Source: Geothrix fuzhouensis
GTDB taxonomy: Bacteria > Acidobacteriota > Holophagae > Holophagales > Holophagaceae
Length of the DNA: 64,000 bases
Direction of reading: 5' to 3'
Assembly (NCBI RefSeq): GCF_024609325.1
Contig: NZ_JANHMQ010000004.1
Location: 1 to 64,000, forward strand
Shown: in pieces, positions 2,994 to 53,596 of the stretch
How positions within the stretch are numbered: position 1 is the stretch's first letter
How the letters are laid out: each line of letters opens with the position of its first letter
Notes under the pieces: generated by a model
The model's input: only the letters and a program-made list of their open reading frames with translations
Database searches by the model: none
What the model was told of the DNA's origin: nothing
Position numbers and translations under genes: made by a program

Positions 2994-3025
2994 TTGGGGG
3001 TTCCGCGCTGCGCGCACACCCCCAA
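2994..3025 (+). repeat. Post-stop hairpin repeat, copy 1
   Basis: TTGGGGGT (2994-3001) pairs with ACCCCCAA (3018-3025) around an inner CGCGCTGCGCGC-like core. It begins 7 bp after the rpmI stop. The same outer design recurs after fusA and after rplX, where the arms are TCCGGGGGT/ACCCCCGGA, so the pair next to the G-run has changed on both sides. A second small hairpin, GCAGGC-ATA-GCCTGC, follows at 3041-3055. Confidence 0.75.
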
Positions 3026-3072
3026 GCCCCCGCGCGCCGCGCAGGCATAGCCTGCTTCGCGCTTGTTCTCCC

Positions 3073-3121
3073 CAGCCACCGGTCCTAGAATCAGTGGTTC
3101 AACCCGGTGGCTGAGGCCACC
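3073..3121 (+). promoter_or_regulatory. Candidate switch-like leader upstream of rplT
   Basis: Segment A (3073-3082, CAGCCACCGG) pairs perfectly with B (3104-3113, CCGGTGGCTG). The core of B (3106-3111) can instead pair with C (3116-3121, GCCACC) over a 4-nt loop. A:B and B:C exclude each other. L20 autoregulates this operon through leader RNA in other bacteria, so this is a plausible L20-responsive element. That function is inferred; only the pairing is seen. Confidence 0.45.
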
Positions 3122-3175
3122 CCCGATGAGGCCTTCAAATGCTCGTCCTGAGCTGCCTCGAGGAAAGGAAGCAAC

Positions 3176-3523
3176 ATGACTCGCGTTAAACGTGGTTTCA
3201 AGCGCGCCCAGCGCCGCAAGCGAATGATGAAGTTCGCCAAGGGCTTCTACGGCGCCAAGTCCCGTCTGTACCGCTCCGCCAAGGAAGCCGTCGAGAAGGC
3301 CCTCGGCTACGGCTACCGCGACCGCAAGGTCAAGAAGCGCGACTTCCGCCGCCTCTGGGTGGTGCGCATCAGCGCTGCCTGCACGCAGAACGGCACCAGC
3401 TACTCCAAGTTCATGGGAGGCCTGAAGAAGGCTTCCGTGGACCTGGATCGCAAGATCCTCGCGGACCTTGCCGTGCGCAATCCCGAAGCGTTTACCAAGC
3501 TCGTGGCCGTGGCCAAGGGCTGA
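3176..3523 (+). CDS. rplT: 50S ribosomal protein bL20
   Basis: A 115-aa basic protein needed early in 50S assembly. It has the family N terminus ([16 protein letters not shown]) and the conserved stretch ending [10 protein letters not shown], and is of normal length. The ATG at 3176 follows GAGGAAAGGAAGCAAC. In E. coli and Bacillus L20 represses its own operon. It is the last gene before a strong terminator. Confidence 0.98.
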
Positions 3524-3551
3524 TCGCGAACGCACCACATCGCCGATACCC

Positions 3552-3583
3552 GAAAGGCCGCGTGAGCGGCCTTTCTTTGTTTT
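3552..3583 (+). terminator. Rho-independent terminator after rplT
   Basis: GAAAGGCCGC-GTGA-GCGGCCTTTC forms a perfect 10-bp stem with a 4-nt loop, followed by TTTGTTTT. It separates the infC-rpmI-rplT transcript from pheS, which starts 24 bp downstream. Confidence 0.92.
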
Positions 3584-3607
3584 GAACCCCATGCCTCGAG
3601 GCTTGTC

Positions 3608-4678
3608 ATGGACCATCTGCTGCCGCCGGAGATCGTCGAGGCGGGCCGCGCCTTCCCGCAGGCCCTGGCGGCTTGCGCCGACCTGGATGGCCTGCTGCGC
3701 CTGAAGGGCGCTTACGTGGGCCGCGAGGGTAGCCACGCCGCGCGCCTCATGGATCTGCTGAAGGCCGCGCCCAAGGAGCAGAAGCGCGACCTGGGTGCCG
3801 CCATCAATGGCCTCAAGCAGGAGTGGGAGGAGGGCCTGAAGGCCCGCCAGACCGAACTGGAAACGGCGAAGAAGAACCTGACTGCGCTGGCCTCAAACTG
3901 GGACCCCTCGCTGCCGCCGCCCGTCCCGGCCCGCGGTGCGCTCCATCCCTTGAACCGCCTCATGGACCGCCTGGTGGAGGTCTTCCGCCCGTTGGGTTTC
4001 CATGTGGAGGAGGGCCCGGAGGTCGAGACCGAGGTCCACAACTTCGATGGCCTGAACATCCCCGAGGATCATCCGGCCAAGGCTTCCTCGGATACCTTCT
4101 ACCTCGCGGCCCATCCGGAATTGCTGCTTCGCACGCACACCAGTCCCGTGCAGGTGCGCACCCTTCTGCGCGTGGCACCGGACCTCGTGAGGCTCGGCGG
4201 TACCCGCTTCCTGGCGCCGGGGCGCGTGTACCGCAAGGACGAGATCGACCCCACCCACAGCCCCATGTTCCACCAGGTCGAGGGCATGCTCGTGGGCCAT
4301 GGCATCGGCATGCAGCACCTCAAAGGCACGTTGGAATACGCGCTGCGAGCGCTCTTCGGGCCCCACACCGAGATCCGCCTGCGGCCCTCGTACTTCCCCT
4401 TCGTGGAACCCGGATGTGAAGTCGACGTGAGCTGTCCCCTCTGCGGCGCGAAGGGCTGCCGCGTGTGCAAGGGCTCCGGCTGGGTCGAAATCCTGGGCGC
4501 AGGTCTCCTCCATCCGAACGTGCTGAGGCACGCGGGCATCGACCCCGAGGAATGGTCCGGCTGGGCCTTCGGCATGGGCGTGGAGCGCATGGCCATGATG
4601 CTGAGCCAGACACCCGATCTGCGGCTGTTCTTCGAAAACGATCAGCGCTTCCTCAAGGCCATGGGAGGGCTCGACTGA
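3608..4678 (+). CDS. pheS: Phenylalanyl-tRNA synthetase alpha subunit
   Basis: Catalytic subunit of the heterotetrameric class II synthetase for tRNA-Phe. The 356-aa protein has an N-terminal coiled coil (about 1-90) that grips tRNA, then the class II core with motif 2 (FLAPGRVYRKDEIDPTHS) and motif 3 (GMGVERMAMM). A CPLCGAKGCRVCKGSGW segment near residue 280 carries two CxxC-like pairs, seen in some bacterial PheS proteins. Its TGA overlaps the pheT ATG by one base, so the subunits are probably translationally coupled. Confidence 0.97.
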   Translation: MDHLLPPEIVEAGRAFPQALAACADLDGLLRLKGAYVGREGSHAARLMDLLKAAPKEQKRDLGAAINGLKQEWEEGLKARQTELETAKKNLTALASNWDPSLPPPVPARGALHPLNRLMDRLVEVFRPLGFHVEEGPEVETEVHNFDGLNIPEDHPAKASSDTFYLAAHPELLLRTHTSPVQVRTLLRVAPDLVRLGGTRFLAPGRVYRKDEIDPTHSPMFHQVEGMLVGHGIGMQHLKGTLEYALRALFGPHTEIRLRPSYFPFVEPGCEVDVSCPLCGAKGCRVCKGSGWVEILGAGLLHPNVLRHAGIDPEEWSGWAFGMGVERMAMMLSQTPDLRLFFENDQRFLKAMGGLD

Positions 4679-6600
4679 TGTGGATTGAACGCAAGGCCCT
4701 GGCCGCTGAAATCCCGGCCGCCGCTGCCCTGGACACGCGCCAGCTCTGCGAATTGCTGGCCGCCCTCGGCTTTCCCGTGGATGGCGTCGCGTCTCGGGAA
4801 GGCACCGAGGTGCTGGACGTGGACATCACCGCCAACCGCGGCGACGCCATGTCCCACCGTGGCGTGGCCCGGGAGGTGGCGGCGAAGCTGCAGCAGCCCC
4901 TGACGCCCCTGGCTCCACCCCCTGCGGCCGAAGGCGCACCCAAGGTGACCGTGCGCCTCGAGAGCCCCGCCTGCCCCATCTACGCCACGGCCCTGCTCAG
5001 CCTCGGGGCGGGCGGAACGCCGATGGAAACCCAAGCCTTCCTGCTGGCCCTCGAGTCCTCGCCCAAGGGGTTGCCGGCCGTCGACGCCTCGAATGAATTG
5101 CTGCACCGCTACGGTCATCCCACCCACGCCTTCGATGCGGATCGCATCCAGGGCGCGGTCTCCGTGCGCTGGGCGAAGGCCGGGGAGAAGCTGGTGACGC
5201 TGGATGGCGTGATCCGTTCACTCACGGCCCAGGATCTCGTCATCGCCGATGAGGCCGGGCCCATCGCCCTGGCGGGGGTCATGGGCGGCGAGGGAACCAA
5301 GGTGACGGAAGCCACCAGGCGCGTGTTGCTGGAGAGCGCCTGGTTCGATCCGAAGACGGTGCGCGCGACGGCGCGGCGCCACAGCCTGCATACGGACGCC
5401 TCCCACCGGTTCGGCCGAGGCGCCGATGCCGCCATGGCCTCGGTGGCCCGGGACCTCCTGGTGGCTCGGCTTCAGACCTGGGCCGGCGCCACCCTGGAAG
5501 GCGCCTGGACGGTGGGTTCCCTGCCCACACCGGACGCCAAAGTTTTGCTTCCCGAGGCCATGCTCACCCGCGTGGCTGGCGAGCCGTTGACCCTGACCGA
5601 AGCATCTGAAATCCTGCACCGCCTGGGTTGCACGGTGGAACTGCATCCGGAGGCCCTGGTCGCCCAGCCCCCCACGTGGCGCCACGACCTCACCATCCCG
5701 GATGATCTGGCTGAGGAGGTCCTGCGCCTTCGTGGCTACGAGCACATCCCGTCAGTGCTGCCGGCCCTGGAAGGTCCGCCGCGGCCCCTTGCCCCGGCCT
5801 ACCTCCAGCGGCAGGCCCTGGCCCGGCGCCTGGCTCACCTGGGGTACCTCCAGACCGTGACTTACGGCTTCATCAGCCCCGAGGCGGACGCCGCCTTCGC
5901 GGTGGTCGGCAACGCCCCCGAAGGGCGCACCCTGGCCAATCCCCTCGGCCAGGAATACTCGGTGCTGCGCGGGACGCTCCTGTCGAGCCTGCGGGCCACC
6001 GCCGAGCAGAACCTCCGCCAGGGCGTGCGGGAGATCCGCCTCTTCGAAGTGGCACCCACCTTCACCAGCGGTCCCCAGGGCCCCACAGAGAGCTACACCC
6101 TCGGCGTCGTCTGGGGCGGCACGTTGGGGGGCGAGGACTACCTGAGTCCCGCCCGCCCCGTGCGGGAAGCCGATCTGGTCGGCATCGCCTGGGATCTGGG
6201 GCTGGACTCGCGTCCCGAGGTGCGTTCGCTGGGTGAGGGCCTGTTCGGGTTCGAGCTTCCCGTCTCGGACCTGCCCCAGGCGGGGGCGCGGATCATCCCG
6301 GCCTTCCGGGCGTTCAGCCGCTTCCCCGCCGTGGAACGCGACCTGTCCCTCCTGGTGAACCTGGGCCAGTCCTATGAGGCCCTGGCTTCGGCCATGCGGG
6401 CGGCCCTGCCTGGAACCATGCTCCAGGATCTGCGTTGCGTGGACGTGTTCCGGCACAAGAGCCTGCCGGAGGGTCGCCAGGCCTGGTTGATGCGCCTGCG
6501 CTTCCAGGGGGACCGCACGTTGGTCGGAGGCGAGGTCGACGGCTGGGTGGCCTCGGCCTTGGCTGCGGCGGAAGCGCTCGGGGCGAAGCTCCGGGCGTAA
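4678..6600 (+). CDS. pheT: Phenylalanyl-tRNA synthetase beta subunit, short form
   Basis: The beta subunit supports tRNA-Phe recognition and edits Tyr-tRNA-Phe. At 640 aa it is about 150 residues shorter than the typical subunit of roughly 790-800. The start of B1 (1-35) runs straight into VLDVDITANRGD (46-56), which normally follows the EMAP-like OB domain B2, so B2 is absent. The B3/B4 editing region (HAFD, GVMGG, FDPKTVRATARR), the class II-like core and the C-terminal ferredoxin-like anticodon domain (about 545-640) are present. There is no frameshift, and the reading frame is intact from the ATG that overlaps pheS, so the short form looks natural. Confidence 0.95.
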   Translation: MWIERKALAAEIPAAAALDTRQLCELLAALGFPVDGVASREGTEVLDVDITANRGDAMSHRGVAREVAAKLQQPLTPLAPPPAAEGAPKVTVRLESPACPIYATALLSLGAGGTPMETQAFLLALESSPKGLPAVDASNELLHRYGHPTHAFDADRIQGAVSVRWAKAGEKLVTLDGVIRSLTAQDLVIADEAGPIALAGVMGGEGTKVTEATRRVLLESAWFDPKTVRATARRHSLHTDASHRFGRGADAAMASVARDLLVARLQTWAGATLEGAWTVGSLPTPDAKVLLPEAMLTRVAGEPLTLTEASEILHRLGCTVELHPEALVAQPPTWRHDLTIPDDLAEEVLRLRGYEHIPSVLPALEGPPRPLAPAYLQRQALARRLAHLGYLQTVTYGFISPEADAAFAVVGNAPEGRTLANPLGQEYSVLRGTLLSSLRATAEQNLRQGVREIRLFEVAPTFTSGPQGPTESYTLGVVWGGTLGGEDYLSPARPVREADLVGIAWDLGLDSRPEVRSLGEGLFGFELPVSDLPQAGARIIPAFRAFSRFPAVERDLSLLVNLGQSYEALASAMRAALPGTMLQDLRCVDVFRHKSLPEGRQAWLMRLRFQGDRTLVGGEVDGWVASALAAAEALGAKLRA

Positions 6601-6619
6601 GATGGGCACAGAGGCAGCC

Positions 6620-6856
6620 ATGGACCTTTTGAAACAGCTCGAAACCAAGATGCAGGCCCTTGTGCAGCAGCGTAACCAGCTGAAAGAAGAGCTAGATGCG
6701 CTGAAGTCTGCCGGGGCCGCTGGAGATCAGGAACTGCAGTCCCTCCGTGCTCGGTTGGAGGAAGCCGTGGCGGAGAAGGCGGCCCTGGAGAAGGACCGCG
6801 AAGCGGTGAAGGCGCAGGTGGCCGCCATTCTGCAGGCACTGGAGGCGTTGGGATGA
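6620..6856 (+). CDS. Small coiled-coil protein, ZapB-like
   Basis: A 78-aa protein predicted to be almost entirely one coiled coil, rich in Gln, Glu, Lys, Ala and Leu heptads. The ATG at 6620 has GAGG five bases upstream. An in-frame ATG at 6602 lacks a site, so the shorter form is preferred. Its stop overlaps the start of zapA (ATGA), so the two are co-translated. Size, coiled coil and partner suggest a ZapB-like division accessory protein, but coiled coils give little sequence proof. Confidence 0.75.
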   Translation: MDLLKQLETKMQALVQQRNQLKEELDALKSAGAAGDQELQSLRARLEEAVAEKAALEKDREAVKAQVAAILQALEALG

Positions 6857-7212
6857 AGCCCCAGCCGCCCCTGCCGGGGGTCCGGGCCGCCACGGTTTCA
6901 GTCCTGGGGCGGGAGCTCCAGGTCCAGACGGACCGGCCCGAAACCCTGGCGGGGGCCGTCCGGATCCTGGAAGACACCTTCCGCGACATGGACTCGCAAT
7001 GCCAGCTAAGATGGGGGAGCGTCCCGAAGGGCCTCGACACCCCGTCTTGGTACCTCCTGGGCGCCCTGAACCTGGCGCACCGTGTGGCGCGCCTGGAGCA
7101 GGAAGCCAACCAGCACAACCAGAACCTGGAACAGACTCTTTCAAAGTTGCTGAACGATGTTCCGGACGAACCTTCCGCCCCCGTGCCCTTCCTCGACGAG
7201 GACGGAGACTGA
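6853..7212 (+). CDS. zapA: Cell division protein ZapA
   Basis: ZapA promotes bundling of FtsZ at the division ring. This 119-aa protein has the N-terminal strand pattern around VSVLGRELQVQTD (about 15-27), a central helical segment (YLLGALNLAHRVARLEQE) and a coiled-coil tail, as in the family. The acidic, Pro-rich C terminus is unconserved. The ATGA overlap with the upstream coiled-coil gene indicates a two-gene unit. A structured RNA region follows before rny. Confidence 0.85.
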   Translation: MKPQPPLPGVRAATVSVLGRELQVQTDRPETLAGAVRILEDTFRDMDSQCQLRWGSVPKGLDTPSWYLLGALNLAHRVARLEQEANQHNQNLEQTLSKLLNDVPDEPSAPVPFLDEDGD

Positions 7213-7213
7213 T

Positions 7214-7386
7214 TTTCCCTGCGAGGCCCGTGATCATGGCCAAGCGCTTGTTCCGTAAGTCGACCTGGGAGACCTTCCCCCTGTCCTGTGCGTTCCGCGC
7301 GTCGGCGCGCCTTAGCCAGGGATTCTGGTTTCCCCCCTACAAGTTAGGGAACTCGGCAAGCCTCCACGACTGAGCGGGGATTTTCT
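7214..7386 (+). ncRNA. ssrS: Probable 6S RNA
   Basis: The 226-bp zapA-rny gap codes for no convincing protein and can fold into a rod. CCCTGC (7217-7222) pairs with GCGGGG (7374-7379, one G-U), and GAGGC (7223-7227) with GCCTC (7360-7364). An inner CCTGG/CCAGG stem (7264-7268 with 7316-7320) is capped by a GC hairpin near 7295-7310. Long unpaired stretches on both sides of the middle would form the bubble that mimics an open promoter. The zapA-6S-rny order is known in several phyla. The assignment rests on position and hand folding only. Confidence 0.6.
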
Positions 7387-7438
7387 TTCACATTCTGATG
7401 CTGGTGGCTCTTCGGATCCCAATTCCCTGGAGTCGCCC

Positions 7439-9079
7439 ATGAACCTGATCAGCTGGATTTTTCTCCTCCTCTTCTTCGCCGCGGCCGGGGTGGGACTCCT
7501 CATGGCCCTGCGGGCCCAGAAGGCCACGGTGGAGGCCTCCCAGGCTCAGGCCCGTGCTGAAGCCGATGTCAAGGTCCAGCGCGAGCAGCTGCTGGAAGAA
7601 GCCAAGCGTGAAGCCCAGCGCCTTCGGGAGCGGGGCGAGCAGGAGGTGGAGGCCCTGCGGAAGGAATCCGATCTGAGGGCCAAGGAGCAGGCCCTTCAGG
7701 CGCGGCAGGAGGCGGAAAAGCTCCTGGCTGAGCGCCAGGCCAACCTGGAAAAGCAGGAACAGCGGCTCCAGTCGAAGGAAACCGGCCTCCAGTCCAAAGA
7801 GGAGGGTCTCGACAAGAAGCTCCAGCAGGTGGAATTGAAGGCCAAGGATCTTGAGACCCTGGCCGAGAAGCGCAAAGCCGAGCTCGAAAAGCTGGAAGCC
7901 CAGCAGGCCGAGGCGAAGCAGCTGGTGGAGGCCCAGGCCAAGCGGTTGGAGGAGGTCGCCGGGCTCACCCGCGAGGATGCCAAGAAAGAGCTGATCAGCC
8001 AGCTGGAATACGCCGCCAAGATGGACGCCGCCAAGCTGGTGCGGCGCATCGACGAAGAGGCCCAGGAGGAGGCGGCCAAAAAGGCCCGCTGGACCATCGG
8101 CGCTGCCATCCAGCGCGTGGCCTCGGACGTGGTGGCCGAACAATCGGTCAGTTCCGTGCAGCTGCCCAGCGACGATCTCAAGGGCCGCATCATCGGCCGT
8201 GAGGGCCGCAACATCCGGGCCCTGGAAAAGGCCACGGGCTGCGATCTCATCGTGGACGACACACCCGAGAGCATCGTCGTGTCCAGCTTCGACCCCATCC
8301 GCCGCGAGGTGGCGCGCCAGGCCATCCTCAAGCTCCTGGCCGACGGCCGCATCCACCCCGCCCGCATCGAGGAGGTGGTGGAGAAGGTGAAGGTGGACAT
8401 GGACCAGCACCTCAAGGAGATCGGCGAGGCCGCCTGCATCGAGCTGGGCTTTCCCGACGTGCACCCTAAGCTGCACAAGCTGGTGGGCCGCCTGAACTAC
8501 CGCACCTCCTACGGCCAGAACGTGCTGGAGCACACCAAGGAAGTCGCCCGCATCGCCGAGTACATGGCCGGCGAGATGGGCTCGGATGCACGGCTGGCGC
8601 GGCGGGCGGGACTCTTTCACGACATCGGCAAGGCCATCGACCGCGAGGTGGAAGGCACGCACATCGAGATCGGCATGCAGCTGATGCAGCGCTATGGCGA
8701 GAAGGAAGAGGTCATCCACGCCATGAGCTGCCACCACGGGGACTTCGAACCCCGCACGGTGGAGGCCATGCTCATCACCGCCGCGGACGCCCTTAGTGCC
8801 GCGCGCCCCGGCGCCCGCCGCGAGATGCTGGAGACCTACGTCAAGCGCCTGGAGAAGCTCGAGGAGATCGCCAGCAGCTACAAGGGCGTGCAGAAGAGCT
8901 ACGCCATGCAGGCCGGCCGTGAGATCCGCATCCTGGTGGATGCGGGTTCCGTGAACGACGACCAGGCCTACTGGATCGCCAAGGACGTCTCGCGCCGCAT
9001 CGAATCGGAAATGCAGTACCCCGGCCAGATCAAGGTCACGGTCATGCGGGAGTTGCGTGCGGTGGAAATCGCACGGTAG
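7439..9079 (+). CDS. rny: Ribonuclease Y
   Basis: Membrane-anchored endoribonuclease that starts mRNA decay. The 546-aa protein has one N-terminal transmembrane helix (about 5-24) and a long charged coiled coil (about 28-200). A KH RNA-binding domain (GRIIGREGRNIRALE, about 243-260) and an HD metal-dependent phosphohydrolase domain follow, with the catalytic His394-Asp395 in HDIGKAID. Length and domain order match the family. The start at 7439 lies after the 6S-like region. Confidence 0.97.
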   Translation: MNLISWIFLLLFFAAAGVGLLMALRAQKATVEASQAQARAEADVKVQREQLLEEAKREAQRLRERGEQEVEALRKESDLRAKEQALQARQEAEKLLAERQANLEKQEQRLQSKETGLQSKEEGLDKKLQQVELKAKDLETLAEKRKAELEKLEAQQAEAKQLVEAQAKRLEEVAGLTREDAKKELISQLEYAAKMDAAKLVRRIDEEAQEEAAKKARWTIGAAIQRVASDVVAEQSVSSVQLPSDDLKGRIIGREGRNIRALEKATGCDLIVDDTPESIVVSSFDPIRREVARQAILKLLADGRIHPARIEEVVEKVKVDMDQHLKEIGEAACIELGFPDVHPKLHKLVGRLNYRTSYGQNVLEHTKEVARIAEYMAGEMGSDARLARRAGLFHDIGKAIDREVEGTHIEIGMQLMQRYGEKEEVIHAMSCHHGDFEPRTVEAMLITAADALSAARPGARREMLETYVKRLEKLEEIASSYKGVQKSYAMQAGREIRILVDAGSVNDDQAYWIAKDVSRRIESEMQYPGQIKVTVMRELRAVEIAR

Positions 9080-9138
9080 GGACGGGCACCCTCTGATACA
9101 GTCCAGGCATCTTCCTACCCACTTGGCCTGGAATCACC

Positions 9139-11790: not shown

Positions 11791-11793
11791 TCC

Positions 11794-12123
11794 ATGCGCA
11801 CGGTCCTGCTGCTCGTCCTCAGCAACATTTTTATGACCTTCGCCTGGTACGGGCACCTGAAGCACCACCGGGACAGCCCGCTATGGATCGCGATCCTGGC
11901 CAGCTGGGGCATCGCCTTCTTCGAATACTGCCTGATGGTCCCCGCGAACCGCTTCGGCTACGGGCGCTTCAGCCTGCCGCAGCTGAAGGTGATCCAGGAG
12001 GTGGTGACGCTCCTGGTGTTCGCGGTGTTCACGGTGGCCTGGATGCGGGAGCGGCTGCACCTCAACCACCTGTGGGCCGGGCTCTGCCTGGTGGGGGCGG
12101 TGTTCTTCACCTTCCGGAGATAG
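11794..12123 (+). CDS. DUF486 / DMT-like small membrane protein
   Basis: A 109-aa hydrophobic protein with four predicted membrane helices. It matches the DUF486 family, related to small drug/metabolite transporters (FMTFAWYGHLKH near the N terminus, EYCLMVPANRFGY in the middle, WAGLCLVGAVFF near the end). Substrate unknown. It starts 3 bp after the hybrid kinase stop, so it is probably co-transcribed, and it converges on the response regulator gene downstream. Confidence 0.85.
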   Translation: MRTVLLLVLSNIFMTFAWYGHLKHHRDSPLWIAILASWGIAFFEYCLMVPANRFGYGRFSLPQLKVIQEVVTLLVFAVFTVAWMRERLHLNHLWAGLCLVGAVFFTFRR

Positions 12124-12136
12124 GTCGGAGGGCCGC

Positions 12137-44263: not shown

Positions 44264-44291
44264 TGCCGGTCTCTTGTTTCGGCTTGGCGCG

Positions 44292-44443: not shown

Positions 44444-44842
44444 GTGCCTACCATCAATCAGTTGATCCGCCTCGGGCGGAAGACGTTCCAGAACAAGACC
44501 AAGAGCCCCGCGCTCGACGCCTGCCCGCAGAAGCGTGGCGTGTGCACCCGCGTGTTCACCACCACCCCGAAGAAGCCGAACTCCGCGCTTCGCAAGGTGG
44601 CCCGTGTGCGCCTCACCAACGGCATCGAGTGCACGACCTACATCCCGGGCGTGGGCCACAACCTGCAGGAGCACAGCATCGTGCTCATCCGCGGCGGCCG
44701 CGTGAAGGATCTGCCGGGCGTGCGCTATCACGTGGTGCGCGGCACCCTGGACGCCACCGGCGTCGCGGGCCGCAACCAGTCCCGCTCCAAGTACGGCGCC
44801 AAGCGCCCCAAGGCTGGCGCTGCGCCGGCCAAGAAGAAGTAG
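44444..44842 (+). CDS. rpsL: 30S ribosomal protein uS12, GTG start
   Basis: A decoding-centre protein of 132 aa, a few residues longer than E. coli because of a basic C-terminal tail. The GTG at 44444 begins [12 protein letters not shown] and follows TTGGAGGAT; the open frame further upstream is leader sequence. The streptomycin-relevant lysines in [13 protein letters not shown] and GRVKDLPGV are the wild-type sensitive residues. It is the first gene of the str cluster, 13 bp before rpsG. Confidence 0.97.
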
Positions 44843-44855
44843 GGGGAGGTAAACC

Positions 44856-45326
44856 ATGGCCCGTCGTTCCGCACCTGCCAAGCGTGAGATCCTCCCGGAT
44901 CCCGTCTACAACAGCCTCACCGTCTCCAAGTTCGTGAACATCCTCATGGAGCGCGGCAAGAAGGCCACCGCCGAGCGCATCCTCTACGGCGCACTGGAGA
45001 TCGTCGCCAAGAAGTCCGGCGAAGAGGCTCTCGAGGCCTTCCAGAAAGCCCTGAACAACATCAAGCCCTCGGTGGAGGTGAAATCCCGCCGCGTGGGTGG
45101 TGCCACCTACCAGGTGCCCGTGGAGGTTCCCCAGAACCGCCGCCAGTCCCTGGCCATGCGCTGGCTGAAGACCTACTCGGCCTCCCGCGGCGAGCGCACC
45201 ATGCGCGACAAGCTGGCGGGCGAGATCCTGGACGCCATGAACTTCCGCGGCGCCGCCATCAAGAAGAAGGACGACGTCCACAAGATGGCCGAGGCCAACA
45301 AGGCCTTCGCGCACTTCCGCTGGTAG
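44856..45326 (+). CDS. rpsG: 30S ribosomal protein uS7
   Basis: A 156-aa primary 16S-binding protein of the 30S head, of normal length, with the signatures [14 protein letters not shown] near the N terminus and [14 protein letters not shown] in the middle. The ATG at 44856 follows GGGGAGG. S7 represses str translation in E. coli; whether it does so here is unknown. A strong hairpin separates it from fusA. Confidence 0.98.
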
Positions 45327-45339
45327 CAGCCCATCCGAC

Positions 45340-45372
45340 CGGAAGGAGCCGCCAACCCGGCGGCTCCTTCCG
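45340..45372 (+). terminator. Strong hairpin between rpsG and fusA
   Basis: A perfect 14-bp stem (45340-45353 with 45359-45372) has a 5-nt loop. There is no U-tract (CGATGATCTTTG follows), so it may act as a processing or partial termination site rather than a full terminator. Confidence 0.6.
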
Positions 45373-45431
45373 CGATGATCTTTGAAGTACCCCCGATTCC
45401 GATTCTGTTTTGATCCTTTCAGGAGGCCGCT

Positions 45432-47540
45432 GTGGCCCGTCAGACCCCCCTCGAGCGCTACCGGAATATCGGCATCATGGCGCACATCGATGCCGGCAAG
45501 ACCACCACGACGGAGCGCATCCTCTACTACACCGGCAAGATCCACAAGATCGGCGAGGTGCATGAGGGTGCTGCCACCACCGACTGGATGGTGCAGGAGC
45601 AGGAGCGGGGCATCACCATCACTTCCGCTGCCATTACGGCTGCCTGGACCCCCCAGACCGGCCAGCTGAAGGGCGTGGAACACCGCATCAACATCATCGA
45701 CACCCCCGGCCACGTGGACTTCACGGCCGAGGTGGAGCGTTCCCTGCGTGTGCTGGACGGCGCCTGCGCTGTCTTCTGCGCGGTGGGCGGCGTCGAGCCC
45801 CAGTCCGAAACCGTGTGGCGCCAGGCCGACAAGTACGGTGTGCCCCGCATGGCCTTCGTGAACAAGATGGACCGCCCCGGCGCGGACTTCTTCCGCGTGG
45901 TCGAGATGATGAAGACCCGCCTGAAGGCGCGTCCCATGCCGATCCAGGTCCCCATCGGGGCCGAGGAAGATTTCAAGGGCGTGATCGATCTCGTGCTGAT
46001 GAAGGCCCTGACCTTCGACGAAGGCGACAAGGGCTTCAAGGTGCTCTACAGCGAGATCCCCGCGGATCTGCTGGACACCGCCAAGGAGTGGCGCGAGAAG
46101 ATGATCGAGATGGTCGCCGAGACCGACGACACGCTCATGGACAAATATCTCGGCGGCGTCGAACTGACCGAAGATGAGCTCCGTAGCGGCATCCGCAAAG
46201 GCTGCATCGCGCTCACGTTCACGCCGATGATGTGCGGCTCCGCCTTCAAGAACAAAGGCGTCCAGCCCATGCTCGACGCGGTGGTGAGCTACATGCCTTC
46301 GCCCCTGGACATCGCCGCCATCAAGGGCGTCGATTCCGATGGCAACGAGGTCGAGCGCAAAGCGGAAGACAAGGAGCCCTTCTCGGCCCTCATCTTCAAG
46401 ATCATGGCCGATCCCTTCGTGGGTTCGCTCGCCTTCATCCGCGTCTACTCTGGCGTTCTCGCTGCGGGCTCCGGCGTCTACAACGCCGCCAAGGGCCGCC
46501 GCGAGCGCATCGGCCGCCTGCTGCAGATGCACGCGAACAAGCGCGAGGACATCGAGGAAGTCCGCACCGGCGACATCGCTGCCGCCGTGGGCCTGAAGGA
46601 TGTGCTCACGGGCCAGACCATCTGCGACGAGAACCACCCCGTGATCCTCGAGTCCATGGACTTCCCGGATCCCGTGATCCAGGTGGCCATCGAGCCCAAG
46701 ACCAAGGCTGACCAGGAGAAGATGGGCGTGGCCCTGAGCCGTCTGGCGCAGGAAGATCCCACCTTCAAGGTGAAGTCCGATCCCGAGACGAACCAGACGA
46801 TCATCGCTGGCATGGGCGAGCTGCACCTCGAGATCATCGTCGACCGCATGATGCGTGAGTTCAAGGTGGAAGCCAACGTGGGCAAGCCCATGGTGGCCTA
46901 CCGCGAGACCATCCGGAAGCGCGTGGACGCTGAAGGCAAGTTCGTCCGTCAGTCCGGCGGCCGCGGCCAGTACGGCCACGTGAAGATGTATGTCGAGCCC
47001 AACGAAGCTGGCAAGGGCTACGAGTTCATCAACGACATCAAGGGCGGCGTGATCCCCAAGGAATACATCAAGCCCATCGACCAGGGCATCCAGGAGGCCA
47101 TGCAGTCCGGTGTCCTCGCCGGCTATCCCTGCGTCGACATCAAGATCACCATCTACGACGGCAGCTACCACGACGTGGACTCCAACGAAATGGCGTTCAA
47201 GATTGCCGGCTCCATGGGCTTCAAGGCGGGCTGCGAGAAGGCCTCCCCTGTGATCCTCGAACCCATCATGGCCGTCGAGGTCGTGGTACCCGAGGACTAC
47301 ATGGGTGATGTCATCGGCAACCTGAACAGCCGGCGTGGGCGCATCGAGAACATGGAGGACCGCTCCGGTTCCAAGGTGGTCACCGCCAAGGTGCCTCTGG
47401 CCGAGATGTTCGCCTACTCCACCACCCTCCGCGGCATGACCCAGGGCCGCGGCAACTACACCATGCAGTTCTCGCACTACGAAGAAGCTCCCCGGAACGT
47501 GGCCGAAGAAATCGTGGCCAAAGTCAAGGGTGCCAAGTAG
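45432..47540 (+). CDS. fusA: Elongation factor G, GTG start
   Basis: A 702-aa translocation GTPase with [12 protein letters not shown] (G1), DTPGHVDF (G3) and NKMD (G4), followed by domains II-V. The GTG at 45432 has AGGAGG five bases upstream of its spacer. tuf, which usually follows fusA, is absent; the next gene is rpsJ, 348 bp downstream. A hairpin repeat begins 10 bp after the stop. Confidence 0.98.
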
Positions 47541-47550
47541 GTCAATGTTC

Positions 47551-47584
47551 TCCGGGGGTTCCGTGCTTCGCACACACCCCCGGA
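47551..47584 (+). repeat. Post-stop hairpin repeat, copy 2
   Basis: TCCGGGGGT (47551-47559) pairs perfectly with ACCCCCGGA (47576-47584), and the loop contains a smaller GTGC-TTC-GCAC hairpin. CCCCCGCG follows, as after copy 1. It starts 10 bp after the fusA stop. Confidence 0.8.
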
Positions 47585-47763
47585 CCCCCGCGATTCGGCT
47601 TGGCCAAGCCAGCCCTCATCGCCATCAAATTCAGCATCACTAGTCATTCTTTGCTTTACCTGTTGTTTCAGCCCCTTTCGGGGTGAGGTCATTCTTCGAA
47701 CCTTCGGGTTGCCGGGCCTCTTGATCCACCGCTTCCTCCTCCGGGAGGTCGTGCGTTCTCTCA

Positions 47764-47799
47764 AAAAGCCGTTGATTTTACAGCGGCTTTTGTTATGCT
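47764..47799 (+). promoter_or_regulatory. Predicted S10-operon promoter, overlapping a terminator-like hairpin
   Basis: TTGATT (47772-47777) and TATGCT (47794-47799) are spaced 16 bp apart, and a TG just ahead of the -10 extends it. AAAAGCCG (47764-47771) pairs with CGGCTTTT (47784-47791), so read-through RNA from fusA would form a terminator-like hairpin exactly across the promoter. The sequence between the upstream repeat and 47763 shows nothing clear beyond a GGCTTGGCCAAGCC palindrome near 47598. Confidence 0.65.
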
Positions 47800-47809
47800 G
47801 ATCAGCCCT

Positions 47810-47876
47810 GTCCCTGTCGTTGGGACGGATTTACATGGGCGGTCAGCGCCCCACGTCTATGGACGGTTTCCGTCCC
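47810..47876 (+). promoter_or_regulatory. Candidate switch-like leader of rpsJ
   Basis: GTCCC (47810-47814) can pair with GGGAC (47822-47826). Alternatively GGGACGGA (47822-47829) can pair with TCCGTCCC (47869-47876), enclosing a GGGCG/CGCCC hairpin (47837-47851). The two folds exclude each other. The second ends 12 bases before the rpsJ start. Leader control by L4 is known for the S10 operon in E. coli; whether the same applies here is inference. Confidence 0.45.
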
Positions 47877-47888
47877 AATGGAGTGAGC

Positions 47889-48215
47889 ATGAAAGACAAC
47901 ATCCGCATCCGTTTGCGTGCCTTCGACCACCGTCTGCTCGATCAGAGCACCCGCGAGATCGTGGACACCGCCAAGCGCACGGGCGCCTCGGTGGCCGGGC
48001 CCATCCCCCTGCCCACCCGGACGAACAAGTACACCGTGAACCGTTCCCCCCACGTGGACAAGAAGAGCCGGGACCAGTTCGAGATCCGCACGCACAAGCG
48101 GCTGCTCGACATCCTGAACCCGACTCAGAACACCGTGGACACTCTCATGCGCCTGGACCTGCCCGCTGGCGTTGACGTGGAGATCAAGGTCTTCAGCCGT
48201 CAGGGCAACCGGTAG
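47889..48215 (+). CDS. rpsJ: 30S ribosomal protein uS10
   Basis: A 108-aa head protein, also the NusE antitermination factor. It has [17 protein letters not shown] near the start and the [18 protein letters not shown] loop. The ATG at 47889 follows GGAGTGAGC. It is the first gene of the S10 operon, 14 bp before rplC. Confidence 0.97.
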
Positions 48216-48229
48216 AGGGGGGAGAAAAC

Positions 48230-48856
48230 ATGTCCAAAGGAATCATCGGAAAGAAGCTGGGGATGACCCAGATCTTCAATGAGCAGGGCCAGGTCGTCCC
48301 CGTGACGGTCATCCAGGCCGGCCCCTGCGTGGTCGTGCAGCGCAAGACCTCCGCCAAGGATGGCTACGAGGCCGTCCAGATCGGCTTCGTGGACCCCAAC
48401 GGCGGCAAGCGCGCCTCCAAGGCCGAAAAGGGCCACTGCGAGAAGCTGGGTGTCGCTCCGGTCCGCGTGCTCCGCGAGATCAAGGTGGACGCGGCTGACG
48501 CCTCCAAGCCCGGTGACAGCGTCCTGGCCAGCGCCTTCGAGGCGAAGACCAAGGTGAACGTCACCGGCATCAGCAAGGGCAAGGGTTTCGCAGGCGTCAT
48601 CAAGCGGCACCACTTCGCCGGCGGCCGCGCGACTCACGGCTCCATGTTCCACCGCGCGCCCGGCTCCATCGGCCAGTCCAGCTACCCCAGCCGCGTGTTC
48701 CCCGGCATGCGCATGGCCGGCCACATGGGCGATGCCCAGGTGACCGTGCGCAACCTGGAGATCGCCAAGGTGGATGTCGAGAACAACCTGCTGCTCATCA
48801 AGGGCGCCGTCCCCGGCCCCAAGGGTGGGTACATCGTCATCAAGCAGGAGGCCTAG
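48230..48856 (+). CDS. rplC: 50S ribosomal protein uL3
   Basis: A 208-aa early assembly protein with the N terminus [17 protein letters not shown] and the central [13 protein letters not shown] loop that reaches the peptidyl-transferase centre. The ATG at 48230 follows GGGGAGAAAAC. rplD begins one base after its stop codon. Confidence 0.98.
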
Positions 48857-48857
48857 G

Positions 48858-49493
48858 ATGGCAGCGTTCCAGCACCCCGTCGTCAACCTCGAGAACAAGC
48901 AGGTCGGCACCGTTGAACTGCTGCCCGAGGTGTTCAAGCTTGAGGACCTGAACGAGCACCTGATCTGGGAAGCGGTTCGCCACTTCCTGGCCAAGCGCCG
49001 CGCCGGCACCGCCAAAACCAAGGACAAATGGGAAGTCAGCGGCTCCGGCAAGAAGCTCTGGAAGCAGAAGGGCACCGGCCGCGCCCGCGTGGGTTCCATC
49101 CGCAGCCCGCTGTGGAAGGGCGGTGGCACCACCCACGGTCCGCACCCCCGTTCCTACGATTACGCGTTCCCCAAGAAGGCCCGGCGCGCCGCCCTGCGTA
49201 ACGCGCTGTCCGCCAAGTTGGCCAGTGGCCAGATCACCGTGGTCGAGAGCTGGGATGTCGAGTCCCACAAGACCAAGGCCCTGATCCAGACCCTGGGCAA
49301 GCTCGGCGTCACCGGCTCTGCGCTCCTGGTGGGCACCGAGGCCAGCGAAAAGCTCACCATGGCCGCCGGCAACAACCCGAAGCTGCAGACCATCGAGAGC
49401 CTGGGCGTCAACGTCTATGAGCTCCTCAAGTACGACCAGGTGATCTTCTCCAAGGAAGCCGTCCTGGCCCTCCAAGAGGTGGTGAAGCCATGA
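48858..49493 (+). CDS. rplD: 50S ribosomal protein uL4
   Basis: A 211-aa protein whose extended loop (about 45-100, with KQKGTGRARVGSIRSP and GGGTTHGP) lines the exit tunnel. The start is the ATG at 48858; the frame is open further upstream inside rplC, but the family begins here. L4 represses this operon in E. coli. The stop overlaps the rplW ATG (ATGA). Confidence 0.97.
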   Translation: MAAFQHPVVNLENKQVGTVELLPEVFKLEDLNEHLIWEAVRHFLAKRRAGTAKTKDKWEVSGSGKKLWKQKGTGRARVGSIRSPLWKGGGTTHGPHPRSYDYAFPKKARRAALRNALSAKLASGQITVVESWDVESHKTKALIQTLGKLGVTGSALLVGTEASEKLTMAAGNNPKLQTIESLGVNVYELLKYDQVIFSKEAVLALQEVVKP

Positions 49494-49765
49494 CCAAGAT
49501 TTTTGACGTGATCCGCAAGCCCCTCCTTACCGAGAAGGGACAGATCCTGCGCGAGAAGAACATCCAGGTGTTCGAAGTGGCCACCTGGGCCACCAAGCAC
49601 CAGATCAAGGAAGCCGTGGAGCTCCTGCTCCAGTCCAAGGTGAAGGGCATCCGCACCGTGCGGATCCCCAGCCGGACCAAGCGTCTGGGCCGTTTCGTGG
49701 GGACTTCCAGCCCCCGCAAGAAGGCCTATGTCGAACTCGTCGAGGGCGCTTCCGCGTCCGAATAA
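49490..49765 (+). CDS. rplW: 50S ribosomal protein uL23
   Basis: A 91-aa tunnel-exit protein, the docking site for SRP and trigger factor. It has VIRKPLLTEKG at the N terminus and a core strand-helix pattern. The 4-bp overlap with rplD indicates coupled translation. A 75-bp gap with no feature I can name separates it from rplB. Confidence 0.96.
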   Translation: MTKIFDVIRKPLLTEKGQILREKNIQVFEVATWATKHQIKEAVELLLQSKVKGIRTVRIPSRTKRLGRFVGTSSPRKKAYVELVEGASASE

Positions 49766-49840
49766 GGCGACTTCATGGCGGACGGAAAAGCTTTGCCCAC
49801 TATCGCCCGCCCCTTTCAACCCTGAGGCAAGAGGACAACC

Positions 49841-50662
49841 ATGAGCATCAAGCAGCTCAAGCCCACGACCCCCGGTCAGCGCGGCATGTCCAAGTTCGGC
49901 TTCGAGGAAATCACGACGGATACGCCTGAGCGTTCCCTGATTGCCAAGAAGAACCGCACTGGAGGCCGTTCCAACACCGGTCGGATCACCACCCGCCACA
50001 TCGGCGGTGGCCACAAGCGCCAGTACCGCGTCATCGACTTCAAGCGCAACAAGCTCGAGGTGCCCGCCAAGGTGGCCACCATCGAGTACGATCCCAACCG
50101 CACCGCCCGCATCGCCCTGCTGGTCTACGCGGACGGCGAGAAGCGCTACATCCTGGCCCCCGATGGCCTGGAAGTGGGCCGCACCGTGGTGGCCGGCAAG
50201 AACGCCGACATCCTGGTGGGCAACGCGCTCCCCCTGCGGAACATCCCCGTGGGCAACACGGTGCACAACATCGAGATGAAGCCCGGCAAGGGTGGCCAGA
50301 TTGCCCGCGCCGCCGGCACGTTCGCCCAGCTCGTGGCCAAGGAAGACGACTACGCCCAGCTCCGCATGCCCTCCGGTGAGATCCGCAAGATCCATCTCGA
50401 GTGCTACGCGACCATCGGCACCGTCGGCAACCTGCAGCACGAGAACATCCAGATCGGCAAGGCCGGCCGCACCCGCTGGAAGGGCATCCGCCCGACCGTC
50501 CGCGGCGTGGTCATGAACCCCGTCGACCACCCGCACGGTGGTGGCGAGGGCCGAACCTCCGGTGGCCGTCACCCTGTGACGCCCTGGGGTCAGCCGACCC
50601 GTGGCTACAAGACCCGTGGCAACCGTCGCACGGACAAGTTCATCGTCAAGCGGATCAACTAG
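49841..50662 (+). CDS. rplB: 50S ribosomal protein uL2
   Basis: A 273-aa protein close to the peptidyl-transferase centre, with the signatures [13 protein letters not shown] and, near residue 225, [16 protein letters not shown], which contains the conserved His. The ATG at 49841 follows AAGAGGACAACC. It is full length. Confidence 0.98.
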
Positions 50663-50673
50663 GAGACACGACA

Positions 50674-50958
50674 ATGGCACGATCCCTGAAAAAAGGCCCG
50701 TTCATTGACGCCCACCTCCAGAAGAAGGTGGAAGTCGCCCAGGCGGCCAACGACAAGCGCGTGATCAAGACGTGGTCTCGCCGGTCGACGGTCGTCCCGC
50801 AGATGATCGGACTGACCCTCGCCGTGCATAACGGCAACAAGTTCATTCCTGTGTATGTCACCGAGAACATGATCGGCCACAAGCTCGGCGAATTTTCGCT
50901 GACCCGCACCTTCAAGGGTCACGCCGGCAAGTCCGATTCCAAGGCGAAGGGGAAGTAG
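50674..50958 (+). CDS. rpsS: 30S ribosomal protein uS19
   Basis: A 94-aa head protein that contacts S13. It has [13 protein letters not shown] at the start and the conserved [16 protein letters not shown]. The ATG at 50674 follows AGGAGACACGACA. rplV begins 2 bp after its stop. Confidence 0.98.
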
Positions 50959-50960
50959 CG

Positions 50961-51317
50961 ATGGCTGATATCGTTTCCACCGCCACCGTTCGCCACCTGC
51001 GCGGTTCGGCCCAGAAGGCCCGCCTCGTGGTGGACTTGATCCGCGGCAAGCACGTCGGCGAGGCCCAGTGGGTACTCGCGCAGGCCAAGAAGTACGCTGC
51101 CGCCCCCATCCGCAAGCTCCTCGATTCCGCCGTGGCCAACGCCATCGACAAGAATCCTTCCGTCAACCCGGACGAGCTTTTGGTGAAGACCGCCTTCGTG
51201 GACGAGGGCTTCCGCATGAAGCGCGTCCGCCCTGCGCCCATGGGTCGCGCCTACCGGGTCCAGAAGCGCACCTGCCATATCACCATCCAGCTCGCGTCCG
51301 CGGCCGGGGAGGAGTAG
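50961..51317 (+). CDS. rplV: 50S ribosomal protein uL22
   Basis: A 118-aa protein with a globular domain and a long beta hairpin ([15 protein letters not shown]) that lines the exit tunnel, a site of macrolide resistance changes in other species. Length and order are normal, and rpsC follows after 2 bp. Confidence 0.97.
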
Positions 51318-51319
51318 TC

Positions 51320-51967
51320 ATGGGTCAGAAGGTCCACCCGTACGGGTTCCGCCTCATCTACCAGAAGAACTGGCACAGCAAGTGGTTCTCCAAGCGCGAC
51401 TACGCCACGCTGCTCCATGAGGACATCAAGCTCCGCCGCGAACTGAAGAAGCAGCTGCACAGCCTCAACGCGATGGTGTCGAAGATCGACATCGAGCGCG
51501 CTGCCGACAAGGTCACCGTGCGCATTTTCACTGCCCGCCCCGGCATCGTCATCGGCCGCAAGGGTGCTGAAATCGACAAGCTGCGCGAGGATCTCCAAAA
51601 GCGCCTGAACCGCCCCGTGTCCGTCGACATCCAGGAGATCAAGAAGCCTGAGGTCGATGCCCAGCTCGTGGCCGAGGGCGTCGCCCAGCAGCTTGAACGC
51701 CGCATCGCCTTCCGCCGCGCCATGCGCAAGGCGGAAGAGGCTGCGATCCGCTTCGGCGCCAAGGGTTTCAAGATCAAGGTCGCCGGCCGCCTGAACGGCG
51801 CGGAGATCGCCCGGACTGAGGATTACCTCTCCGGCCAGATGCCCCTGCAGACCATCCGCGCGGGCGTTGACTACGGTTTTGCCGAGGCCCATACGACCTA
51901 CGGGATCATCGGCATCAAGGTCTGGGTGAATCTGGGCGACCAGGTTGCCGAGACCGTGAAGCGCTGA
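51320..51967 (+). CDS. rpsC: 30S ribosomal protein uS3
   Basis: A 215-aa protein with an N-terminal KH domain ([15 protein letters not shown], about 73-87) and the C-terminal S3 domain; it helps mRNA entry and helicase activity. The true start is the ATG at 51320 ([12 protein letters not shown]); the open frame upstream runs through rplV out of phase. Confidence 0.98.
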
Positions 51968-51976
51968 GGTGAATCC

Positions 51977-52396
51977 ATGCTGATGCCCAAGAAGGTCAAG
52001 AACCGTAAAACCCAGAAGGGCCGCACCCGCGGCGTCGCCACCCGTGGCAACGATCTCGCGTTTGGTGACTATGGCCTCAAGGCGATCGAGCACTGCTGGC
52101 TCACGAACCGTGAGATCGAGGCCGCCCGTATTGCCATGACCCGCCACATCAAGCGCGGCGGCAAGATCTGGATCCGCATCTTCCCTGATCGTCCAACCAC
52201 CTCGAAGCCCGCGGAAACCCGCATGGGTTCCGGCAAGGGGGCTCCGGATGGCTGGGTGGCGGTGATCCGCCCCGGCCGCATCCTCTTCGAGATGGAGGGT
52301 GTGACCGAGGAAACCGCGCGTGAAGCCCTGCGCCTGGCCCAGATGAAGCTGTCCGTCGCGTCCGAGTTCGTCAGCCGCACGCCGCCGGAGGAGTGA
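51977..52396 (+). CDS. rplP: 50S ribosomal protein uL16
   Basis: A 139-aa protein near the A site. It starts [15 protein letters not shown], with [11 protein letters not shown] and the R(M)[12 protein letters not shown] motif that carries the arginine hydroxylated in E. coli. The ATG at 51977 follows GAGGTGAATCC. The next gene starts 5 bp after its stop if the ATG at 52402 is used. Confidence 0.97.
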
Positions 52397-52401
52397 GAGC
52401 C

Positions 52402-52602
52402 ATGACCAAGAAGAACCCCTTTTCCGAATTGACCGGCAAGAGTGTCGAGGAGCTGGCGCAGCTGGAGGCCGAACTGGCCGCCAAGCGCTTCACCCTCCGC
52501 TTCCAGCACGCTGTGGGCCAGGTCGAGAACACCGCCGAGATCCGCAAGACTCGCCGTGAGCTCGCCCGCGTCAAGAGCGCCCTGGCAACGAAGCTGGCCT
52601 AG
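52402..52602 (+). CDS. rpmC: 50S ribosomal protein uL29
   Basis: A 66-aa, two-helix protein next to the tunnel exit, with [18 protein letters not shown] and the C-terminal [11 protein letters not shown] helix. The ATG at 52402 has GGAGGAG at good spacing; a GTG at 52393 overlapping the rplP stop would add three residues and is less likely. Confidence 0.95.
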
Positions 52603-52610
52603 GAGACCCC

Positions 52611-52868
52611 ATGAGCCTCGAAAACAAGATGATTCGTAACGGCGTCGTGGTCTCCAACAAGGCCGACAAGACGGTGGTGGTAAAGGTGGAGCGCAAGTTC
52701 CAGCACCCGCTCTACCACCGCACGGTCAAGCAGACCGCCAAATTCATGGCTCACGATGAGACCAACGCCTGCGGTATCGGCGACGTGGTCAAGATCGTCG
52801 AGACCCGCCCCCTTTCCAAGCGCAAGCGCTGGATGGTCCTTGAGATCGTTCAGAAGGCCGGCGAGTAA
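52611..52868 (+). CDS. rpsQ: 30S ribosomal protein uS17
   Basis: An 85-aa OB-fold protein that binds 16S helix 11, with [18 protein letters not shown] and the C-terminal [11 protein letters not shown]. The ATG at 52611 follows AGGAGACCCC. Confidence 0.97.
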
Positions 52869-52877
52869 GGAGCTCAC

Positions 52878-53246
52878 ATGATTCAGATGGGAACCATGCT
52901 CATCGTTGCCGACAACTCCGGCGCCAAGAAGATCTGCTGCATCCTGCCCCTGGGCGGCGGTGTGGGCAAGATCGCCCAGCTTGGCGACGTGATCACCGCC
53001 TCTGTCAAGGAAGCGATTCCCGGCGGCACGGTCAAGAAGAAGGCCGTCGTCCAGGCCGTGATCGTTCGCCAGCGCAAGGCCTACCGCCGCAAGGACGGCT
53101 CCTACATCCGCTTCGACGAGAACGCCGCCGTCATCATCAAGAAGGATGGCGAGCCGGTCGGCACCCGCGTGTTCGGCCCCGTGGCCCGCGAGCTGCGCGA
53201 GCGGAAGTACATGAAGATCGTCTCCCTCGCCCCTGAGGTGCTGTAA
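52878..53246 (+). CDS. rplN: 50S ribosomal protein uL14
   Basis: A 122-aa intersubunit-bridge protein with [11 protein letters not shown] near the N terminus and [10 protein letters not shown] near the C terminus. The last base of its TAA is the first base of the rplX ATG. Confidence 0.98.
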
Positions 53247-53521
53247 TGGAAGCCACTACCATCAAGATGAAGCTGAAGAAGGGCGACCAGGTCGTCGTCA
53301 TCGCCGGCAAGGACAAGGGCAAGACCGGAACCGTCTCCAAGGTCAGCCCCGCCACCAACCGCGTGGTCATCGCCGGCATCAACATGATCAAGAAGGCGAC
53401 CAAGCCCAATCCCCAGACCGGCGAGGGTGGCGGGATCATCGAGAAGGAGGCCTCCATCCACGCCTCCAACGTGATGCTCCTGGACGCCAAGACCGGCAAG
53501 GGCACCCGCAAGCGCGTTTGA
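53246..53521 (+). CDS. rplX: 50S ribosomal protein uL24
   Basis: A 91-aa assembly initiator with the KOW motif ([18 protein letters not shown]) and the Asn/Pro-rich loop after [11 protein letters not shown]. It shares one base with rplN. After it the operon is interrupted by 310 bp of non-coding sequence before rplE, which is unusual. Confidence 0.97.
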
Positions 53522-53526
53522 CATTC

Positions 53527-53596
53527 TCCGGGGGTTCTCCTTGCAGCGCATGCGCTGCAAGGATCTAAGGGCGCTCTGCGACCTACGACCCCCGGA
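53527..53596 (+). repeat. Post-stop hairpin repeat, copy 3
   Basis: TCCGGGGGT (53527-53535) pairs perfectly with ACCCCCGGA (53588-53596), starting 5 bp after the rplX stop. The interior carries a perfect 20-bp palindrome (53541-53560, TTGCAGCGCA and its complement). The outer arms are identical to those of copy 2. Confidence 0.8.

Follow-up and report, generated by a model that had tools for sequence, protein, structure and literature searches.

We analyzed a 64,000-nucleotide stretch of DNA (hereafter the window), positions 1 to 64,000 of contig C4 in the 3.32-Mb, six-contig genome of Geothrix fuzhouensis. Three copies of a structured repeat lie here on the forward strand behind the stop codons of rpmI, fusA and rplX. 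A first-pass annotation had described one hairpin at each site; we found that a second hairpin follows each of the three, and that the three belong to one dispersed repeat family. The genes and hairpins in the window are as follows.

2784..2987, + strand: rpmI (ribosomal protein L35; PF01632, 5.6e-22), upstream of copy 1
2994..3025, + strand: copy 1 hairpin 1, arms TTGGGGGT (2994-3001) and ACCCCCAA (3018-3025), inner GCGC-TGC-GCGC
3032..3062, + strand: copy 1 hairpin 2, GCAGGC-ATA-GCCTGC core
45432..47540, + strand: fusA (EF-G; EFG_IV, 2.8e-48 on the C-terminal 498 amino acids), upstream of copy 2
47551..47584, + strand: copy 2 hairpin 1, arms TCCGGGGGT (47551-47559) and ACCCCCGGA (47576-47584)
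47590..47622, + strand: copy 2 hairpin 2, GGC-CAA-GCC core
53246..53521, + strand: rplX (ribosomal protein L24; PF17136, 1.3e-17), upstream of copy 3
53527..53596, + strand: copy 3 hairpin 1, arms TCCGGGGGT (53527-53535) and ACCCCCGGA (53588-53596), long interior with a GCGCATGCGC palindrome
53598..53628, + strand: copy 3 hairpin 2, GGAGGC-AAA-GCCTCC core, then CTTTTCC

A check against the sequence showed that the hairpin coordinates first annotated for all three copies were correct. The gap between stop codon and first arm, which had been put at 5-10 bp, measured 6 nt behind rpmI (stop 2985-2987), 10 nt behind fusA (47538-47540) and 5 nt behind rplX (53519-53521). Copies 2 and 3 do share their arms, and the paired change of both arms in copy 1 was confirmed. 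The statement that no U-tract follows held for hairpin 1 but not for hairpin 2 of the rplX copy, which precedes CTTTTCC. In an alignment of orthologous rpmI sites, hairpin 2 of copy 1 covaries. The only match in the window at Rfam gathering score was 5S rRNA, and the repeat matches no Rfam family.

To search for further copies, a covariance model was built from 10 copies of the G. fuzhouensis genome, with the rpmI and fusA copies included and the rplX copy excluded. Against the 3.3-Mb genome, the model matched copy 1 at 2986-3067 (88.2 bits, E 6.6e-13) and copy 2 at 47544-47625 (85.0 bits, E 2.5e-12), both of them training sequences, and copy 3, which was not a training sequence, at 53520-53633 (35.1 bits, E 3.5e-3). 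Folding z-scores were -2.7, -5.3 and -5.6 for the rpmI, fusA and rplX copies, respectively. These E-values and z-scores place the whole structure above chance, although the arm alone occurs in the window at chance level (TCCGGGGG 7 times versus 10.6 in shuffles, GGGGGTTC 5 times versus 5.2).

The covariance-model search of this and related genomes, which the first-pass annotation had proposed, recovered the family throughout the genus. The G. fuzhouensis genome gave 46 matches at E<=10 and 30 at E<0.01, with a lowest E of 6.5e-15. At E<=0.01, the repeat was present in 37/37 genus genomes and in 0/23 genomes outside the family; a family-level scan at E<=0.001 found it in 47/47 genus genomes (4 to 49 matches each) and in 12/30 genomes of other genera. 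The family-level scan used strict filters, by which weak matches are lost. In a scan of named genomes, all 80 loci among the matches listed were titled Geothrix, Holophagaceae or Acidobacteria, and a contig of Geothrix campi SG10 carries the repeat. The earlier restriction of the hairpins to ribosomal and translation-factor genes proved too narrow. Gene calls beyond the window came from a codon score that had been trained on the window itself, and 22 of the 25 upstream genes scanned in G. fuzhouensis have Pfam matches; 7/25 are translation genes (L21, L24, L27, L31, L35, S15 and EF-G), and others encode HSP70 (DnaK), two AMP-binding enzymes, OmpW, a BamD-like lipoprotein, a ferritin-like protein and transport functions. 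The repeat is not confined to ribosomal operons.

The unit spans ~82-120 nt and consists of the stop codon, ~5 nt, hairpin 1, a C-rich linker (mostly CCCCCRCG) and hairpin 2. To describe it we used 146 copies, 116 from named-genome records and 30 from G. fuzhouensis; the named loci were chosen by the exact hairpin-1 pattern and not by position, which under-samples hairpin-1 variants, and copy counts take in orthologs repeatedly, so the events counted are not independent. Base frequencies in these 146 copies gave the leader consensus RATGYTSTCC. Hairpin 1 has conserved GGGGGT/ACCCCC arms around an exchangeable, variable interior, which in G. fuzhouensis is short, long (CGCATGCG) or of a GGGGGGACC type. 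The pattern GGGGGT-N8..38-ACCCCC has 18 matches in this genome (a few overlapping) versus 8 for the reversed control, and about ten of the 18 are closely alike, near GGGGGTTCCGCGCTGCGCGCACACCCCC. Hairpin 2 has a variable stem of up to 13 bp and a triloop, mostly as CNNAG. On the minus strand of locus L009, a gene ends with the family leader TGCTCTCCGG, but the perfect hairpin behind it (CCGGCGTATGCGCGC) is a different one, as would result from replacement of the entire hairpin 1.

The position of the repeat relative to stop codons is highly regular. In G. fuzhouensis, 24/30 matches begin -4 to +6 nt from the end of a same-strand stop codon. A near stop is present in 102/146 copies, and in 60 of these 102 the G-run lies exactly 8 nt behind it. 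This register was compared with a null of 5000 simulations in which copies were placed uniformly between their flanking genes; from 116 non-array copies, 10 were left out for register and 6, which had no upstream gene call, for orientation. Among the copies with called genes on both sides, exact register was found in 55/106 (null mean 2.6, maximum 10) and a start within -7..+6 in 95/106 (null mean 22.9, maximum 39), and 107/110 copies lie in sense with the upstream gene. Loci compared from other genera share a -2 register in 11/30 cases. Ordinary 3' hairpins, taken as a spacing control (77 genes without and 23 with the element, sorted by a rough text pattern), start at widely spread distances; this control carries little weight, as start positions taken from folding scatter for element genes as well (3 to 21).

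Copies at 32-554 nt from the nearest called stop exist, many of which are later members of arrays, and, read by eye, the copies at L043, L050, L181 and L223 seem to lie behind a terminator-like stretch. Three copies (L044, L166 and L177) have no called sense gene. These three are similar and apparently orthologous, and they lie behind a conserved stretch with AAAAAAGGTGGGNCGAACCCACC and a possible small open reading frame (ORF; MAEL...) reading into the element.

In G092, a genome from another genus, 20 stretches were read. TGA or TAA stands at the tip in 16/17 alignable copies, read by eye with a shift of 1-3 nt allowed and with the divergent L317, L327 and L329 omitted. In seven copies (L312, L314, L315, L316, L320, L322 and L323) the left neighbour is on the other strand, and 6/7 of these keep the TGA/TAA tip with no called gene ending there, the tip of L323 being CAA. 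The right tip often reads CTA, and in L312, L313 and L322 the other-strand gene has this CTA as its called stop. Copies occur in both orientations. At L326, L327 and L328, open frames appear to run into the repeat, which may encode protein ends there. In Geothrix, tips with a stop triplet but no in-frame stop number 13/85, versus ~1/85 at offsets -25..-8, with several of the gene ends uncertain. Tips in G092 carry the triplet even where no gene is called to end, which makes it a part of the element or of its target. A leader tip that forms a stop triplet (TRA), or is inserted at one, is probably part of the reason for the fixed register, and selection on distance may account for the remainder.

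We next consider how the sites differ among genomes. The rplX-rplE site was compared in the 30/41 genus genomes that gave an rplX match; reading by eye, we found the unit in 16/30 loci and none in 14/30 (L109, L110, L116, L120 and L124 being read as empty), and the filled sites are scattered patchily on a tree of the flanking genes. The rpmI-rplT site matched in 39/41 genus genomes, and 19/30 loci compared have the family; most others have a different short hairpin. In the rpmI loci without the family (L128, L135, L139, L143-L146 and L149-L151), this is mostly a hairpin of the GCGGGNTTCCC-loop-GGGAANCCCG type in nearly the same place. Ten G. fuzhouensis sites compared by eye with two near relatives, G025 and G015, showed filled, empty or exchanged states, with differences at the dps, rplU/rpmA, fusA, acs and T2SSF gene sites. 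At the T2SSF site, 3 nt separate two convergent stop codons in G015; a unit is present in G. fuzhouensis, and the one in G025 faces the other gene. At the bamD site, both hairpins differ by eye between G. fuzhouensis and G025 while the register is unchanged. Several genomes carry direct tandem arrays of 2 to 8 copies with a period of about 76-94 nt. A leader-like direct repeat behind hairpin 2 was found in 24/98 copies marked as non-array versus 3 in the control, and several of these precede a further copy, which fits decayed or unmarked tandem copies. The filled and empty orthologous sites, the exchange of hairpins and the tandem arrays together indicate that the repeat behaves as mobile DNA. 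Of the options offered in the first-pass annotation (mRNA processing, transcript stabilisation or a mobile palindrome), the last fits best, given these observations and the family-wide dispersal.

Compensatory arm changes had been taken to point to selection on RNA or DNA structure. The changes are real. Across 116 copies, in an alignment fitted to the structure, 93.2% of cells pair versus 80.5% in shuffles, with two-sided changes in 20/25 pairs. They also occur at a single orthologous site: at rpmI (21 rows, two of which are another hairpin), 15/25 pairs show two-sided changes, one arm pair being CG in 10 rows, AU in 5, UG in 3 and UA in 2. There, the 'further pair types' measure was reached by 63/500 shuffles and the other four measures by 0/500. 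These paired changes are no proof of selection on RNA, since G-U, which ought to exceed A-C under selection on the sense RNA, is no commoner than A-C (36 versus 46 cells in the 116 copies). The rpmI site gave 17 versus 10 (p 0.5 per hairpin). In the conserved leader before rplE, used as a control (27 loci), G-U variation was counted by eye in 13 pairs and A-C variation in 1, a count biased towards G-U because RNAalifold, which accepts G-U but not A-C, picked the pairs; a control with terminator stems (10) was too small. A strictly sense-strand RNA element is unsupported by this test. The stems look more like DNA palindromes that were perfect at birth and have decayed evenly.

Nevertheless, a role for the hairpins at message 3' ends is possible. 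The mean number of T residues in the 8 nt behind hairpin 2 was 2.41 in 34 operon copies, 3.0 in 31 copies and 3.06 in 32 convergent copies, versus a baseline of 1.52, and the T-run is mostly weak. At rpmI and rplX sites without the family, 22/25 have another stem with a score of at least 7 no more than 67 nt from the stop (3% in shuffles), and in 19/25 the stand-in stem begins within 14 nt of the stop; these 25 sites are orthologs with common hairpins and represent few independent cases. This suggests that rpmI and rplX genes need or tolerate some hairpin at this place, of which the repeat is one supplier. The dps and T2SSF sites of G015 showed no stand-in hairpin by eye. Processing or stabilisation of mRNA, as first proposed, is possible: the repeat's sense orientation and stop register point that way, as do the stand-in hairpins at most empty rpmI/rplX sites, while the lack of a G-U preference weakens the case.

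Altogether, with moderate confidence, we favour the explanation that this is a non-autonomous, mobile palindromic repeat of the whole Holophagaceae, similar to repetitive extragenic palindromic (REP) sequences and kept at gene ends as a stop-proximal 3'-end structure. The unit would spread as mobile DNA through some enzyme, and copies would persist where they supply the message of the upstream gene with its 3' end. Hairpin 1 would block 3' exonucleases and also be an obstacle close to the terminating ribosome's leading edge, and hairpin 2 would act as a weak terminator-like 3' hairpin.

Several results weigh against this explanation. Six of the 30 G. fuzhouensis matches (L043, L044, L050, L054, L058 and L059) lie away from a called same-strand stop, and L054 and L058 overlap called genes. 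Hairpin 2 differs strongly among dispersed copies, which whole-unit copy-and-paste would not predict. In the clade of G006, G018 and G026 a loss is likelier, and some empty sites are probably secondary losses, such that gain and loss are not fully separated. The Y1 transposase (Pfam Y1_Tnp) was not found in G. fuzhouensis or in 37/41 genus genomes, and no convincing copies were seen near the 25 Y1 loci searched (best E 0.25). A Y1_Tnp match of any kind occurs in 4/41 genus and 6/16 family genomes; the search covered Y1 transposases, by the Pfam model. Reading the G092 copies by eye revealed neither a target duplication nor a terminal inverted repeat. Finally, G-U cells are no commoner than A-C cells, which weakens a message-level role.

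An alternative that we regard as unlikely, and nonetheless as the strongest of those weighed, is translation control, in which the terminating ribosome runs with its leading edge into the hairpin, whose G-run begins 8 nt past the stop, so that termination or release is slowed, and selection fixes the position of the hairpin. The exact register with a partly variable 5-nt spacer agrees with this. However, stalling behind rpmI, rplU, fusA and dnaK would presumably be costly, the copies whose closest called stop is 32-554 nt away (including many later members of arrays) do not fit, and tip stop triplets without an in-frame gene explain the register more simply. It is rather improbable that the copies are ordinary RNA 3' elements, i.e., vertically inherited intrinsic terminators (hairpin 2) preceded by an additional hairpin, with convergence accounting for the dispersal. 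The T enrichment behind hairpin 2 and the two-sided changes (20/25 pairs overall, 15/25 at one orthologous site) would be expected of such elements, but the likeness of hairpin 1 across unrelated genes, the tandem arrays, the clean empty sites, the mostly weak U-tracts and the lack of a G-U preference would not.

Even less probable, in our judgment, is insertion actively directed to stop codons, the target being, e.g., single-stranded DNA (ssDNA) just past the last ribosome or the 3' side of a TRA triplet. The register, the sense bias and the stop-triplet tips are consistent with it, but the Y1 search found no enzyme, a TRA target alone would also put copies at other TRA triplets in 3' regions, and G092 copies occur in both orientations. 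We give similarly little credence to a bolder version, in which the stop triplet is borne on the tip, the palindrome is delivered to ORF ends by a process that senses translation stops (e.g. through ssDNA beyond the last ribosome), and host lineages swap the stop and double-hairpin 3' end like cassettes. Chance palindromes in a GC-rich genome, with which the unenriched arm in the window would agree, are rejected as having practically no prospect, in view of the covariance-model E-values down to 6.5e-15, the register null and the genus-wide distribution.

Two neighbouring stretches of the window are conserved in their own right. Positions 53676-53834, before rplE (CCCCGTGCGCGGGG ... GAGGTTGGGGGGAAACGGGCCGGACCGCCG ... 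GGGGCATAGCCGCCCC), are nearly invariant in 27/30 genus loci aligned, fold well, vary almost only by G-U and have no Rfam match in the window; this stretch is likely a ribosomal-protein leader and may be an S8-type spc control site. Positions 3070-3175, before rplT, contain a block (GGTTCAACCCGGTGGCTGAGGCCACCCCCGATGAGGC) conserved in most of 30 genus loci, likewise with no Rfam match in the window, which may be an L20-type leader. A candidate promoter behind copy 1 (TTGTTC-17-TAGAAT), spotted by eye, was discarded, as a promoter scan did not recover it.

Several known systems invite comparison. REPs were reported between unidirectional or convergent genes close to ORF 3' ends in P. entomophila and S. 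wittichi, with GTAG REP termini often supplying a TAG stop codon (PMC3733652). REP-associated tyrosine transposase (RAYT) genes are said always to lie between two REPs in inverted orientation (PMC2817692), and REPINs consist of two inverted REPs (PMC3116915). Similar to REPs and bacterial interspersed mosaic elements (BIMEs), the Geothrix repeat is a short, extragenic, multi-copy, imperfect palindrome near gene 3' ends. Unlike them, its unit has two different hairpins, nearly always in sense and with one dominant stop register, and the leader consensus of the 146 copies has no GTAG/GTGG tag. No RAYT partner was found and no inverted doublets were seen: the arrays read are direct repeats, and the only opposite-strand neighbours less than 200 nt apart (L229) are by eye one stretch matched twice. 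A RAYT-driven REP was therefore rejected; the repeat resembles one in form and place but is not filed as one, because it lacks the tags, the RAYT and the inverted pairs.

CGTC-tagged REPs, also palindromes near 3' ends, are reported to lack a dedicated transposase (PMC3733652). The Geothrix repeat likewise has no dedicated transposase flanked by copies (Y1 only searched), but it differs in its double hairpin and fixed register and in having no CGTC at its unit ends, judged from the consensus and the units read with no separate search. In E. coli, 446/4,072 REPs lie within 15 nt of a stop, and REPs so placed are reported, from earlier work, to stall ribosomes or lower translation (PMC12306157). 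Geothrix copies share the stable hairpin a few nt behind the stop, but 95/106 of them start within -7..+6. Repeats with a 5' foot CnGA, possibly at high copy, lie beside class 3 TnpA-Y1 genes, with Acidobacteria among the hosts (PMC6006769); palindromic structure and phylum are shared with these, whereas 37/41 genus genomes have no Pfam Y1_Tnp match. Hairpin 2 resembles intrinsic terminators in its GC-rich stem and in the CTT(TT) that often comes behind it, but the U-tract is mostly weak (2.4-3.1 T of 8), many copies lie within operons, and hairpin 1 has no U-tract. Among the titles and abstract openings listed in searches of open-access papers, none gives an account of this repeat family.

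Our results suggest that compensatory changes in bacterial palindromes need not mean selection on RNA. The very regular relation of the Geothrix repeat to stop codons, with no RAYT partner found, makes it testable how RAYT-less palindromic repeats spread, and also whether stop-proximal hairpins are kept for the message, i.e., for its 3' end or for translation termination, or are merely tolerated.

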